Notes under the pieces: generated by a model
Told to the model about the DNA's origin: nothing
Seen by the model: the letters and a program-made list of their open reading frames with translations, nothing else
Databases searched by the model: none
NCBI RefSeq assembly: GCF_051622035.1
Contig: NC_135358.1
Location: forward strand, 22,138,501-22,202,500
Direction: 5' to 3'
From: Arctopsyche grandis
Taxonomy: Eukaryota > Arthropoda > Insecta > Trichoptera > Hydropsychidae
Length of the DNA: 64,000 nucleotides
Part shown: piece by piece, positions 44,422 to 64,000 of the stretch
How positions within the stretch are numbered: the first letter of the stretch is position 1
Layout of the letters: the number at the start of each line of letters is the position of its first letter
Made by a program: the position numbers and the translations under genes

Positions 44422-47400
44422 TTAGTGATTTGTCTGACCACCCCGTCTATAGTAGTCTCCATATGGTCTGTTGCCACCTCGACCGCGACCACCTGGATTT
44501 CTCTGAGCACCTCTACCTCTGGTATTGTTGAAGTGATTGAAATCATCGGAGGGATATGAGCTATTATTACCCGTCATGGGAGCATTATAGTAGGATTGAA
44601 ATTGATTTGAATTTTGAGAATTGTTCCAAGACACGTTCGGTTGATTAACCTTGAATGAATCTTTGTTAGTCACATAACGTCCCAAATCTTGCTGTAAACC
44701 ACTACCGACCTTCATCTGATTTCCAACGTTCATCTGATTACCGGTGTTCATCTGATTACTGGTGTTCATCTGATTTCCAAAATTCATCTGATTGCCAACA
44801 TCCATTGGATTGCTGATATTCATTTGATTGCCAGCATTCATCGAATTGCCAACATTCAACGAATTGCCAACATTCATCGAATTGCCAACATTCATCGAAT
44901 TGCCAACATTCATCGAATTGCCAACATTCATATGATTGCCATAAGGATTCATTTTATTTTGATTATCAAATTTACCCATACCACGGTTGTCACCATAATG
45001 GAAATTATCAGACATAGGGTTTTCTCCAGAAAATTTATTTGAGGAAGTGTTGTAGGCATTTTGCATTTGAATATTTCTGTTTTGTTGCGGTGCTTGATCC
45101 ATCTTGTTCGCCTGTTTTGGAATGTAAGAGTCTGTATGTCTGTAAAGTCCACTGCTTTGTGGTAACAAAGATCGATTTGGCTGATCATTCATATTATATT
45201 GATTATTCATTGGCATCTTGGGCAACATATCTCGGGGGTTAGGCAACATACTCTGATTATTTGGCTGCATTGGAAACGATTGTTGACGAATTGGTGGAGT
45301 GTTTACTATATCTCTTTGCTGCATGTTCATATAACCAGGTTTCAAAGATGGAGAATTCATAATTGGATCGTGCGATACAGTAGGCAAATTCACCGGAATT
45401 AAGTTAGATGCGTTCTTTACAAGTTCTAAGACGTTTGCAAGAGTTGCAGCGTCTATATCAGTTTTATCAGTGTCAATAGGGTTTTGGATTTCACTTGTGT
45501 CTGAATCTGTAGGGGCCACTGTTTGGGCATCATTTGACTCGTCTCTGCCATCTTTTAAAGATTGCTTGATTATTTCAAGCTCTTCTTGAAGTTGTCTCTC
45601 CTTCACTTTTTCAGCTGCACACTTAATAACCTACAGCACAAAGTGTAATTTAAAAACATTGTCACAATTTCGTAATCTAATTTTAAATAAATATAAGACA
45701 AAATTACCTCTTCATAAGAATAGTCTTCATCATCATCGCTATCCTTGGACTTAACAGAAAAAGGTTTCTTATCTTCTGCCTTTTGAACATCAGCTTTGGG
45801 CTTTTCATCGACTGATGGATTCATACCACATGTACGATTCGAAAAAGGACTCAACCGTCCGGACGCTAAAATATGACAAATATCCAATATTACAATATTC
45901 CATTTCACAAATATTCAAGAGTTTAAAATTACCTAAAAGTAAACTATATTTATACCTTTCTTCCAACCTTTCTATGATTTCCATACTAGTATTAAATTCG
46001 TGTTCACTATTTTTTAAATTCCACATATAAAATAAATGTAGAAAATTGAAATGAAAAACTAAAAATGATATAAAAGTAATTTCCTGAACAAATACGCTTC
46101 GGGTAAATTTAATCGCGTTTGAAAACGGTTAGTTTCAAAATGCGATTGAAGGATTCACTCAATTCTAAATACCATATCATAGTTTAAGAATGTTATTAAT
46201 AAGTACTTAATATAAAGTGAAAATAGATTGGCGTATTCTACATACTTCTTTTACAACATTTACAGGTTTGATGGAGGATTGTAATGATATATATCTTATC
46301 AAATTTGATATTAAACATAGTGTATTTAATTCTATTCAAAAAATTATAAGTAACATAAAATGCACACACATAAAATCACAATTATAATAGAAACTGACCA
46401 ATAGTTATCGATTGTTGTTCGAGGTACAAATCAATATTGAAAATTTTTTTCAAATTTTCAACTCGCTGGGGATATTTAGATTCCAATCTCTTCAAATAAG
46501 CAACTAGACCATGTTGCTCGTCAGATGACAAATCTTTAAAGTTTTGTAATAATGTTTTCAAATCTGAATCGCTCAATTTATCTGAAAAAGCTGACTCGGC
46601 AGCGACGCTCGACGCAGCAACAGTAGTACTATACAAAATATATATTTATAAACATTTATAAAAATACAGAATATATAATAAAAATAATATTGATAATATA
46701 CTTTTTATCATAAGCTGTTTGTAAAGCTTGGAGTCCATTCATTGACTTATTATCTTCATCATTTTTAGTGGGAGATACATCTTTTTTGATGGATAATGTA
46801 GTGCTATGCATATTCATTAGCTGTGCTAATAAACCTAAAAGTACATATGCATAAAAGTAAATTTTTGGACAAAAATAATAAATAACTACTCCAATACTTG
46901 CAAAAATTATTTTTCAATTGAGGTAACAAATTGGCCACTTACTAGTAATAAATCTAATATATAATTTCGAAAGAGACTGTATGTATGTTTGTTTGGGTCG
47001 TAGATTCCGTGACTTTCAATTTAATAAAAAAACAAATATTCCAATAAATATAAATAAAATAAAACTATTCAAATAAATTTAATAATTACTATTAGATTGG
47101 CCATGTTTAAGCGGTTTATATAACAAATACCGAGCGAAGCCGTGTAAAAACACTAGTGAACTATATAATACATATGTACATGTACTTACTGCCACCAAAT
47201 GCATCTGTTGGTATATGTGATGCGTTTGCCATTCCGACAACTGCATTTATCAAGTCTTCGAGTTCTTCGGTAGACACATCGGTTTTGCCTTGGGCAACCA
47301 AAGCTGCAGCAATTTGAGTGGCAATAGCTGCCTTTTCTACCGGACCAACGCCTGCTACAGGTAGACTCTGTAAATGCATAATGTAAATTTGAAAAGATCC

Positions 47401-59568: not shown

Positions 59569-59724
59569 GAATGCGTCGTCCACAAACACGGTATCTACAC
59601 CCGATATTTACGAAATTTTCCATATCCAGTTCTCATATTGCATCCTTTGTAATTTAGGAACTGGTTATGGAAAATTTCGTAAATATCGGGAGTAGATACC
59701 GTGTGTGTGTGGACGACGCCATTC
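59569..59724. repeat. Long hairpin, about 60-bp arms
   Basis: The left arm contains GTCGTCCACA, ACGGTATCTAC and CGATATTTACGAAATTTTCC. The right arm is the complement (GGAAAATTTCGTAAATATCG, GTAGATACCGT, GTGGACGAC). The loop is about 20-25 bases (from about 59,640). The arms are over 90% identical by eye. It is 400 bases upstream of the C18orf63-like gene. A miniature palindromic transposon is most likely; a structured RNA is possible. Confidence 0.65.
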
Positions 59725-60131: not shown

Positions 60132-62681
60132 ATGTCTGACAAGATTTTGCTATCTTCAAAAATATGCCCCTTCGATGAATTGACGTGTTTTGTTTGCACA
60201 ATTGACGAGCATGAGAAACGGGACAAAAGTGCTCCTTCTGTTTTCCATCACCGGATCCTCAAATGTCGGTGAGTACTTATGAGATTTAATGTTGTATTGG
60301 CTAACAACCGTGTTATACATATTCTTGTTTATTCCAGAATACTAATATTTTCAATGCAAGAAATACTATCTGCTCCAAATCATAAAAACAATTTACAAAT
60401 ATATGTAATTTTTCAAAGGAGCACTAACATCAATGAAACGCTTCAGGAATGTCTTAACAAAAATAAGCTTAGAGTATATTTTCATATGTGGTAAATTTTA
60501 ATATGCATCCTTTTATTATTAGAATCTTAATTAATATTTAATACATCAGGTGTTGCAATCGGCTGAGGTGAATGCAAATATCTTTGAAGCATGCCTAAAA
60601 TATACGTTGATTGCTAAAATGGCACCCTTGTGGAATCAAATTGAAACAAACTTGTTGGTAAAAGGACGTGATTTTTTACAAACTCGTCAACCCTTAAAAG
60701 CTATAATATTAAACGTTTTTGTTTTCGGTAATGTTTATTTATTTGAATACATATTTATATTTATTTTCATCTGTAATTGTATTAATTTGATTTTTATTTC
60801 ACTTCTTTATACAAAGACAACTCTGTGATCTTGGAAATAAAGTGTCTTAAAATAAGACTGTCTCCAATTCAAATTGATGATTTAAATGTTGCCAATAATA
60901 CTTTGGATTATTTTAACCAAATGCCAAATGCCATTATATCTGAAAATTCTTTAATGAATCAATGGGTTCATGTCCTTCCAAGGTCAGTTGCTAATGTAAT
61001 TGTATATTCTTTATCATTTTACAACTAACTCTGAAACGTTTATACCTCTATGATTTATACTTTCTTAAGTCTCAAAAAAGGTCAAATAATATCTGTCAAT
61101 AAAGAATTACCTCAATCTGCACTTTTCCAAAATTACAAAGATTTGAATCGTCATTGGAAAAATATTGTAAGTCATTAAGATTTTATTTTGAACACATTAA
61201 AAGTCTTTTTATATGCTTTTACACATTTTTATTTTAAGTATGGCTATCGTCTTCCTGAAAAAAATTCCGGAATATTATTTTTTGAAATTCATTTTAAACC
61301 TTTGGGTCCTCAGTTATACACTTATCCATCAGTTTGCTTACAGACTAGTAAACCTTTACAAATCGTTCCAACTGCAGATACAATTGTAAGCATTCATTTA
61401 TTGTATTTGACAGAAATATTTAATAACACATGTGTTTTAATACCTTCTATATTTTCAGAGAATTATAAAAAATGACTTTTTGTTTGATATCAGACAACGC
61501 TTGTCGCATGTGTTAGGATATTCTACAAATTTTGATTACTTTAATGACCCAGACACCTTCGGTCATAACCCTACTTCACTTCATGATTTCAGTTGCTTTA
61601 AAAAGGTTTGAATGCATTAAATATATTAAATATAAAGATTGTCACTGATGCATAACATATAATAATTTGAAATCACTTTCAGGAAAATTTCATGAATCAA
61701 AATGATTCATCCATGGAAAATATAGAAAGCAATATTGACAATAATTTCACACAGCAAATTAGTCTTTGCACACCGACTCAAATTATACCGAAAAAGCCAA
61801 CGTTCTTTCCTAAAAATAATAATGATATTTATAATTCCGAAAAACATGATTCAGATTTAGAAAATATAGAAAGTAGCGTTGATGATAGTGTCGCACAACA
61901 TATTAGTTCCTGCATGGCGACTCAAAACATTTCAAATAATACAATATTTAAGCCCATTTTTTTCCCTAAAAAAAATAACGGCAATTATGATTCACAAAAA
62001 AATTGTATGAAACAAAACGAATTTCAAGATCTTGAACACTCAATACAAACAAATATGGATGTTGAATGCTCTCAAAACCAGACAGCCAGTTTCCAAAATA
62101 TACATTTTTCAACCCCTATATTTATAAAACAAGACATCACCAATGTTAAAATCGATCAACATATTTTCAGTATTAATGGAAATAACGATCTTAGTGTAAC
62201 TTCATTGAATGCTTTACAAAATAATTTAGAAAAAGATCATCTTCCTCAAGATATTCCATTACCTTTGAATGAAATTAAAAATAAATTCACTAAAAGTGAC
62301 AAAAGTGATTTCAATGACAGTATTGCATTTAGCAATAATAATTCACAAGATAAAGCAAAGTCTCAAGATGTCTTAAAGATGGTATCACAATCAACCGCAA
62401 ATACAGTATGTTTTTGATAACTTTAACTTTGATCTTAATAATAAGCAATACTAATATTTATACTTTATTTTTAGAAAATTAAAAAACCAAAATCAAAAAA
62501 TATAAATAACATGGTTAATATAGCACTTTTGGCAAATACTGATCCAAAAGGTTTACAAAAATTAAACATACCAACATTGTACACATGGTTGAGATCTCAA
62601 AATGTTCATGTAACTACTAAAATGTTAAAACAGCAATTGTTGGACAAAGTTTTTGAACATTTAAACATGAAATCGGAATAA
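60132..62681 (+). CDS. C18orf63-like (DUF4708) protein, 9 exons
   Basis: Exons: 60132-60268, 60338-60473, 60550-60727, 60817-60982, 61070-61166, 61239-61385, 61459-61605, 61683-62405, 62475-62681; 645 residues, all GT-AG with matching phases. Residues 1 to about 336 align in order with vertebrate C18orf63: LLVKGRDFLQ (vertebrate LLVQGRDFL), WVHVLPSLKKGQIISVN, LNRHWKNIYGYRLPEKNSG and LGPQLYTYPSVCLQT. These are the conserved blocks of DUF4708. Residues 337-577 (one exon) are polar and Asn-rich with an internal duplication. The last 68 residues are basic and helical. No signal peptide or membrane segment, so it is probably intracellular. The biochemical role of the family is not established, and I infer none. 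The exon 2 donor (AGA|GTATAT) was chosen because the alternative TGTG|GTAAAT breaks the frame. Confidence 0.88.
61713..62000 (+). repeat. Internal protein duplication in the C18orf63-like gene
   Basis: Residues 347-390 and 395-442 are two copies of one unit. Both start (M/D)(L)ENIES, continue with D(D/N) and (T/A)Q(Q/H)IS.C, then TQ(I/N)I, and end with KP.FFPK.NN...Y(N/D)S(E/Q)K. The second copy has a four-residue insertion. A weaker third start (DLEHSIQTN) follows. This lies in the rapidly evolving tail, outside DUF4708. Confidence 0.85.
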
Positions 62682-62687
62682 CCCTGG

Positions 62688-62693
62688 AATAAA
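62688..62693 (+). terminator. Polyadenylation signal AATAAA
   Basis: AATAAA begins 7 bases after the TAA stop of the C18orf63-like gene, implying a very short 3' UTR. It is compatible with the convergent gene that ends at 63,438. Confidence 0.6.
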
Positions 62694-63437
62694 AATTTAA
62701 TTATTGTTTTATAAATATGATTACTGGTTAAAATGAGCTGAAATATAATTTTTCTATTTAAAATTGTTTTATTTATTTAAATTAAAATTTTTAAATATTT
62801 AGCACTACATACATACATAAATACAGAGTACATATAACAAATACAGAATACAATTAGTAATAAAAATAGAGGTCTACCCTCCTTGAAAAAAGGTGCGCAA
62901 AAGCAACAGTCAGTATAAGATCTGACATTTGATATGTGGGGATGGGCTGTTGTAAATTAAATGACCTAATTGTATATTTAATGAAGAATGTTTCGATTTG
63001 ATTAATTGTTATTTAAGATGTCAAAATAAAATCATTTTACGTTTTTGAAAAATAAAAATACATGATCGTAGGTGCTGTCAACTTTGTGCAATTAACAAAA
63101 CACATACAATAATTTATTATACATATATCCCAGATATTAATGAATTGGCGACCTAAATAAGCAGTTTCAACCTTCCGGAGTCTTTGGAACCATTTTAGTT
63201 GGTGATATTTTTCAAGAAACCCTAACTTTAGATAGTATTTCTCGAATATATACAATCTAATCACTTAATTTTAATTAAAAACATTCCTATGTCGTCTTGT
63301 CAATAACATTTTCAAGCTTTTCTGTGTCTGACACATATTAAGAAATCATTCAAGGAACCCTTCAATTCCCTTTATGGAACTCAAGTTTAAGAATGCTGAT
63401 GTAAACAATTTACAGCCATGATAAAAAAATTCTTAAA
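62694..63437. other. Space between convergent genes
   Basis: No gene supported. It should contain the 3' UTR of the pickpocket-type gene (minus strand, below 63,438). AT-rich; nothing else recognised. Confidence 0.5.
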
Positions 63438-64000
63438 CTATTTCTTTGCTAAAGAATTTCGCAGTGTGTCTGTTTGAGTTATTTTCTTCCTTCTAAAATT
63501 GCATATTGGCCTAAAAACGAATTAAAAAAAAATAAAAATCATGTTTTTTTATAGCAAAATATATAATGTTAAGTCATTTTTTATATTTACTTGATTGTTA
63601 AAAAGTATATTATTTCAACGAGGCTCAAAAATGAGAATCCAAGAAAGAGACCCATGATACCACCACAATTTGCCAAGAAATCAGTAATACCGTACAGCTC
63701 TGACCTTCTGGACATGATAAATTCGGCGTCTTTAAAGAACATGCTGACCCGGGACAGACCAAACCTTAAACAATATAAATTTAACATATAAAATATGAGC
63801 CCTGCAACGTTTAAATATGTGTACATACATTTAAATATATATTTTATATTACTCCTTAATTCTTGGGGTGTCTTTTTTCTTTGCTTTGGCTAAATCCAAC
63901 CAATGAAAATCAGACTGTGAGACTTCACTATCGTAAATGAGAGATGTGCAAGCAGGCAAGCAATCACATTTCATCAAATTTTCCAGGTTTTTAACTTGTT
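63438..64000 (-). CDS. Pickpocket-type DEG/ENaC channel, last three exons (partial)
   Basis: Exons in reading order: 64000 (continuing outside) to 63853, then 63764-63591, then 63510-63438 with stop TAG. Phases fit. The visible part contains the Cys-rich end of the extracellular domain (CDCLPACTSLIYDSEVSQ, the classic pickpocket CxCLPxC motif). It is followed by the FF.D.EF...R...YG..DFLANCGG pre-membrane segment and TM2 GLFLGFSFLSLVEIIYFLT. TM2 includes the G-F-S selectivity-filter motif and the conserved SL.E. The short basic cytoplasmic tail reads KPICNFRRKK, then about 14 residues. Pickpocket proteins form amiloride-sensitive sodium channels used in mechano-, chemo- or osmosensation. Which member this is cannot be told from the C-terminus. 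TM1 and most of the extracellular loop are beyond the window. Confidence 0.92.

Follow-up and report, generated by a model that had tools for sequence, protein, structure and literature searches.

C18orf63 and the systems closest to it

C18orf63 is an orphan human gene tied to germ cells around meiosis, and we take its family to be Pfam DUF4708 (PF15813). By analogy with human and chicken expression, the family has a supported germ-line lead, with some reports from other body sites. Single-cell data from human testis show an expression component rich in meiosis genes that peaks in pre-leptotene spermatocytes, and C18orf63 is one of the uncharacterised genes with high specificity for it (PMC9792524). 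Another report has the gene up in pre-leptotene cells and down in leptotene-zygotene cells (PMC12081002). Together with SPO11, REC114, SYCP1, and SPATA22, C18orf63 is also among the oocyte genes that one paper tabulates as common to chicken and human, and that paper calls it not clearly understood (PMC9570461). It is also a novel meiosis candidate on a human fetal ovary list (PMC12055976).

Other reports come from outside the germ line. C18orf63 has been reported from plasma in a sepsis subtype (PMC12403962) and from the toad parotoid gland, where it was labelled with ubiquitin ligase activity (PMC10273630). In ovarian cancer cells it co-precipitates with MMP3, and a chromosomal or transcriptional role was surmised (PMC12071843). 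Within the passages of the literature searched, no functional experiment on any DUF4708 or C18orf63 member was found. The search returned no paper under the name DUF4708, and among the C18orf63 papers found, none names the gene in its title and none has a title about insects.

HOP2 and MND1 are genes of meiotic interhomolog recombination that are also expressed outside meiosis, according to a 2009 inventory (PMC2680839). The same source lists DMC1 as missing in Drosophila and Anopheles and present in Bombyx and Tribolium. HOP2 and MND1 resemble the protein described below in occurring in the same genome and, presumably, the same cell type. There is no sequence link between them and the DUF4708 protein, and they offer pathway context only.

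An insect member of the DUF4708 family

The window is a 64,000-nucleotide stretch of the genome of the insect Arctopsyche grandis. Near its downstream end lies a nine-exon gene on the forward strand (Table 1) whose product is almost certainly a DUF4708 family member, as judged by profile comparison. When the 645-residue translation was scanned with hmmscan against Pfam-A, DUF4708 matched with an E-value of 3.7e-64 and 217.1 bits, against a curated cut-off of 27. The match runs from residue 31 to residue 282 and from position 24 to position 274 of the 274-position profile, which is 251 of 274 profile positions and a near full-length domain. In the unspliced genome, translated in six frames, exons 3 through 6 each exceed the DUF4708 cut-off, in order and at one place. 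The DUF4708 membership claimed in the original prediction is strongly supported by the HMM search and by exons 3-6 individually. That prediction had also spread the conserved blocks of the domain over seven exons; their order stands, and because residues 31-282 are encoded by exons 1-6, the domain spans six.

Table 1. Coordinates of the DUF4708 gene and its component features in the window
Feature	Positions	Strand	Description
Exon 1	60132..60268	+	Start codon, residues 1-46; open frame, donor GTGAGT
Exon 2	60338..60473	+	Residues 46-91; donor GTATAT at 60474
Exon 3	60550..60727	+	Residues 92-151; DUF4708 profile 83-141, 45.4 bits on its own
Exon 4	60817..60982	+	Residues 151-206; DUF4708 profile 143-199, 31.1 bits
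Exon 5	61070..61166	+	Residues 206-238; DUF4708 profile 190-230, 28.4 bits
Exon 6	61239..61385	+	Residues 239-287; DUF4708 profile 226-274, domain end, 30.1 bits
Exon 7	61459..61605	+	Residues 288-336; outside the Pfam match
Exon 8	61683..62405	+	Residues 337-577; Asn-rich, predicted disordered linker
Tandem copy 1	61701..61844	+	Residues 343-390; 26 identities over 48 aligned residues, by eye
Tandem copy 2	61845..62000	+	Residues 391-442; head to tail directly behind copy 1
Exon 9	62475..62681	+	Encodes residues 578-645 plus the stop; C-terminus, basic with predicted helices
Segment likened to SAP	62553..62663	+	Residues 604-640; no SAP domain by profile
AATAAA-type poly(A) signal	62688..62693	+	First of three; the others start at 62781 and 62859

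What is new is this gene as a member; the DUF4708 family itself was already known. The sequence as such shows ordinary family membership, and the interest of the locus lies in function. A clear relative of an orphan human gene tied to germ cells around meiosis seems to exist beyond the vertebrates. Provided that DUF4708 is the family of C18orf63, that family goes far back in animal history, which suggests a conserved function. If easily mutated insects carry a DUF4708 gene as well, a role in fertility becomes directly testable.

No other DUF4708 place was reported in the 475.7-Mb genome, where a first look gave two candidates and both were scored. A search of bacterial and archaeal genomes and of viral contigs, which could reach close relatives only, gave 18 and 1 pattern matches, respectively, none of them confirmed. 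A PDB sequence search with residues 1-336 gave no match. The protein differs from the PF15813 profile in having a tandem-duplicated linker and a basic helical C-terminus, both of which lie outside the domain. A FERM_N match (E 0.011-0.19) fell under its cut-off, as did weak matches to Derepression, DUF6926, and TMEM252.

The asparagine-rich linker and its tandem duplication

Exon 8 encodes an acidic linker with 37 asparagines among its 241 residues and a net charge of -12. Among all 7,689 stop-terminated frames of the window, its open frame of 248 codons ranks second in length. The linker contains two copies of a repeat arranged head to tail. Its best self-alignment scores 124. When the residues of exon 8 were shuffled 300 times, with the split point optimised likewise each time, the mean score was 45.0 (sd 7.5) and the maximum 83; 0 of 300 reach 124. 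The Asn-rich, internally duplicated tail that had been described from inspection of the sequence is thus found in both respects. A KP-x-FFPK motif is present in both copies (61794-61814 and 61950-61970) and forms a well conserved portion of the repeat. The tails of vertebrate C18orf63 proteins may contain a loosely similar P-x-F-x-P stretch.

Predicted alone by AlphaFold2 from a single sequence, exon 8 has a mean pLDDT of 35.0, with 231 of 241 residues under 50. This fits a disordered linker, to which a model built without an alignment lends weak support. Human C18orf63 figures in a gene table published in a study of genes that carry homopolymeric asparagine codons (PMC4533780), and judging from that table, an Asn-rich stretch may be common to the human and insect proteins.

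Proposed role in early meiosis

Based on vertebrate expression, the DUF4708 protein would be made in the germ line as cells enter meiotic prophase. Its site of action would be the meiotic chromosomes inside the nucleus, and its likeliest function there that of an adaptor for recombination or for assembly of the axis; both this function and the exact biochemical step are guesses. The N-terminal DUF4708 domain would be folded and make a conserved contact. The two KP-x-FFPK copies in the disordered linker could be a short partner-binding motif, and the basic C-terminal helices could serve as a dock for a partner or for DNA; both roles are guesses. By analogy with its vertebrate relatives, there is about an even chance that the protein is a nuclear early-meiotic factor with a meiotic role. 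The full proposal is considerably more tentative: that DUF4708/C18orf63 is an ancient animal factor of early meiotic recombination or the chromosome axis, predating the insect-vertebrate split, with a partner-binding repeated motif in its linker and a new, non-SAP C-terminal helical module that docks on chromatin or a partner.

The genome contains a good match to HOP2 (TBPIP family, E 5.0e-21) and a match to MND1 (Mnd1 family, E 1.8e-20). These matches show only that the setting of interhomolog recombination exists in this genome.

Alternatively, DUF4708 proteins could be general germ-cell or wider regulators, for example of RNA, of translation, or of the turnover of proteins, rather than meiotic machinery. 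Their tie to meiosis would then be no more than expression in the window of meiotic entry. Asn-rich disordered tails like the one predicted in this protein are frequent in RNA granule proteins, and the functional evidence for the family consists of expression, which such regulators would share. The reports of C18orf63 from plasma, toad gland, and cancer cells also point in this direction. Conversely, the shared oocyte table sets the gene beside recombination and synaptonemal complex genes, and Pfam reports no RNA-binding or ubiquitin-ligase family in the 645-residue protein. A general regulator of this kind is a possible, if doubtful, explanation.

The basic C-terminus and its suggested likeness to SAP

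Exon 9 carries a net charge of +8 and four predicted helices (residues 587-599, 601-605, 609-618, and 625-643), in agreement with the basic helical C-terminus that had been proposed. Predicted alone, it has a mean pLDDT of 64.9, and values of 76-81 per ten-residue block occur at residues 608-637 only. No second match to exon 9 was found in its own genome, nothing was reported for it in NCBIfam or PHROGs, and a Foldseek search with the predicted structure gave no match. PDB sequence searches returned two matches for exon 9 at chance level (E 1.4-1.6) and none for its 46-residue C-terminal part. Part of exon 9 resembles DUF4518 (PF15008) weakly, over profile positions 60-96 of 271 (E 0.006-0.014). 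At 15-16 bits, this match falls short of the cut-off of 27, and it is absent when the whole protein is scanned; a literature search on DUF4518 found no paper. A candidate nuclear signal, KKPK, is no better than chance, being present in 1192 of 5000 shuffles.

The SAP domain (PF02037), found for example in Ku70, MKL1, and E1B-AP5, resembles the C-terminal segment in having two short predicted helices with a loop between them in a basic stretch. The original prediction had noted, by eye, a faint likeness to a SAP-type DNA-binding helix pair, and profile methods do not uphold it. Pfam scans of the 645-, 68-, 53-, 46-, and 37-residue forms, run at E-values up to 10 with HMMER filters that drop most matches above about 0.1, reported no SAP, HeH, or LEM for the exon 9 segment. 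In the same setting, the SAP consensus used as a positive control was found at 64.7 bits and E 4.9e-18, against a cut-off of 23.9 bits. The exon 9 locus is also absent from the eight SAP matches reported in the genome, six of them over the cut-off, from 12 candidates scored.

A SAP profile of ten rows was built from five of the eight matches in the insect's own genome and five of 15 PDB rows, namely those with printed alignments. One match on a small contig that may belong to another organism (L009) was left out, as were two under the cut-off (L012 and L013). Exon 9 scores 3.2 bits against this profile over a short piece, and 70 of 5000 shuffles do at least as well. In ten leave-one-out models with filters off, exon 9 scores 0.7-3.6 bits, whereas the true SAP domains left out score 14.8-50.8 bits. 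The loop of exon 9 lacks glycine, while all 10 of the SAPs compared have at least one glycine in the loop.

Other comparisons are more favourable. The predicted helices at 609-618 and 625-643 have pLDDT values of 76-81 over most of their length and a SAP-like spacing by eye, and the segment is basic. The Ku70 SAP shows a weak pairwise likeness, aligning to exon 9 in register with a score reached by 4 of 2000 shuffles, but it is the best of five rows; the other four scores are reached by 70, 255, 333, and 1358 of 2000 shuffles. A profile of the five PDB rows gives 4.7 bits, a score that 9 of 2000 shuffles equal or exceed, but its alignment is out of register. Because the profiles fail and the Ku70 pairwise result is favourable, residues 604-640 are filed as a predicted basic helical element of no assigned kind, and a highly diverged SAP-type helix pair, which would imply direct chromatin binding, is retained as an improbable reading.

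Integrity of the gene model

Joined, the nine exons comprise 1938 nt and encode 645 uninterrupted residues followed by one stop. All eight introns have GT-AG boundaries and measure 69-89 nt, in line with the nine-exon gene first drawn from the DNA. The donor of exon 2 is the site at 60474, because a GT at 60491 would by arithmetic break the reading frame of exon 3. When the genome (475,669,232 bases in 189 contigs) was searched at the DNA level, the gene stretch was reported as a single match. From the sequence, the locus reads as an intact single-copy DUF4708 member, and its single copy agrees with orthology to C18orf63. The three AATAAA patterns were counted in the 219 nt past the stop, and this pattern is common in AT-rich DNA.

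Exons 8 and 9, or exon 9 alone, might lie outside the DUF4708 protein, through intron retention or a separate tail transcript. The gene model was read from DNA, a retained last intron would end the protein a few residues past exon 8, and the searches run with exon 9 turned up no significant relative. Nevertheless, the exon 8/9 junction has a GT-AG donor and acceptor that keep the phase, and the coding score of exon 9 exceeds those of all 123 same-length comparison frames. The exon 9 C-terminus looks coding, and a tail separate from the DUF4708 protein is quite unlikely. A decaying pseudogene, of which no sign was seen, is scarcely credible for a locus whose coding sequence has no stop or frameshift, whose splice sites are all intact, whose domain match is near full-length, and for which no second copy was reported in the genome.

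Surroundings and other features

Downstream of the DUF4708 gene, two pieces of a DEG/ENaC channel lie on the reverse strand (63587-63998), reaching the end of the ASC profile with E-values of 5.2e-19 and 2.7e-6. The channel, which is presumably pickpocket-like, is on the opposite strand, and the two genes therefore converge. This channel and the short introns of the DUF4708 gene are compatible with an arthropod genome, though no proof of one.

Two other open frames on the reverse strand had no Pfam match at E 0.01. A 402-residue frame at 44425-45630, the longest in the window, is rich in N, M, and Q and has an array of GN-x-MN repeats and an end rich in RG. A 128-residue frame at 10-393 resembles, by eye, the dimerisation region at the C-terminus of hAT-type transposases. 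Neither Rfam, at its gathering threshold, nor a tRNA scan found anything in the window.

Two contigs of the assembly have AT-rich stretches with long open frames. Contig C98 carries the SAP match L009 inside an 800-residue open frame (locus GC 0.30), and contig C108 carries a second, weaker HOP2 match (L015) inside a 220-residue open frame (locus GC 0.28). A second eukaryote in the sample, for example a microsporidian, may be the source of both contigs.

Upstream of the DUF4708 gene, at 59581-59709, lies a MITE-like palindrome of two 62-nt arms that are 89% complementary and separated by a 5-nt spacer. A first look at the genome gave 708 candidates for this palindrome, and scoring of the best 40 gave at least 82 matches, in which one palindrome possibly counts on both strands.
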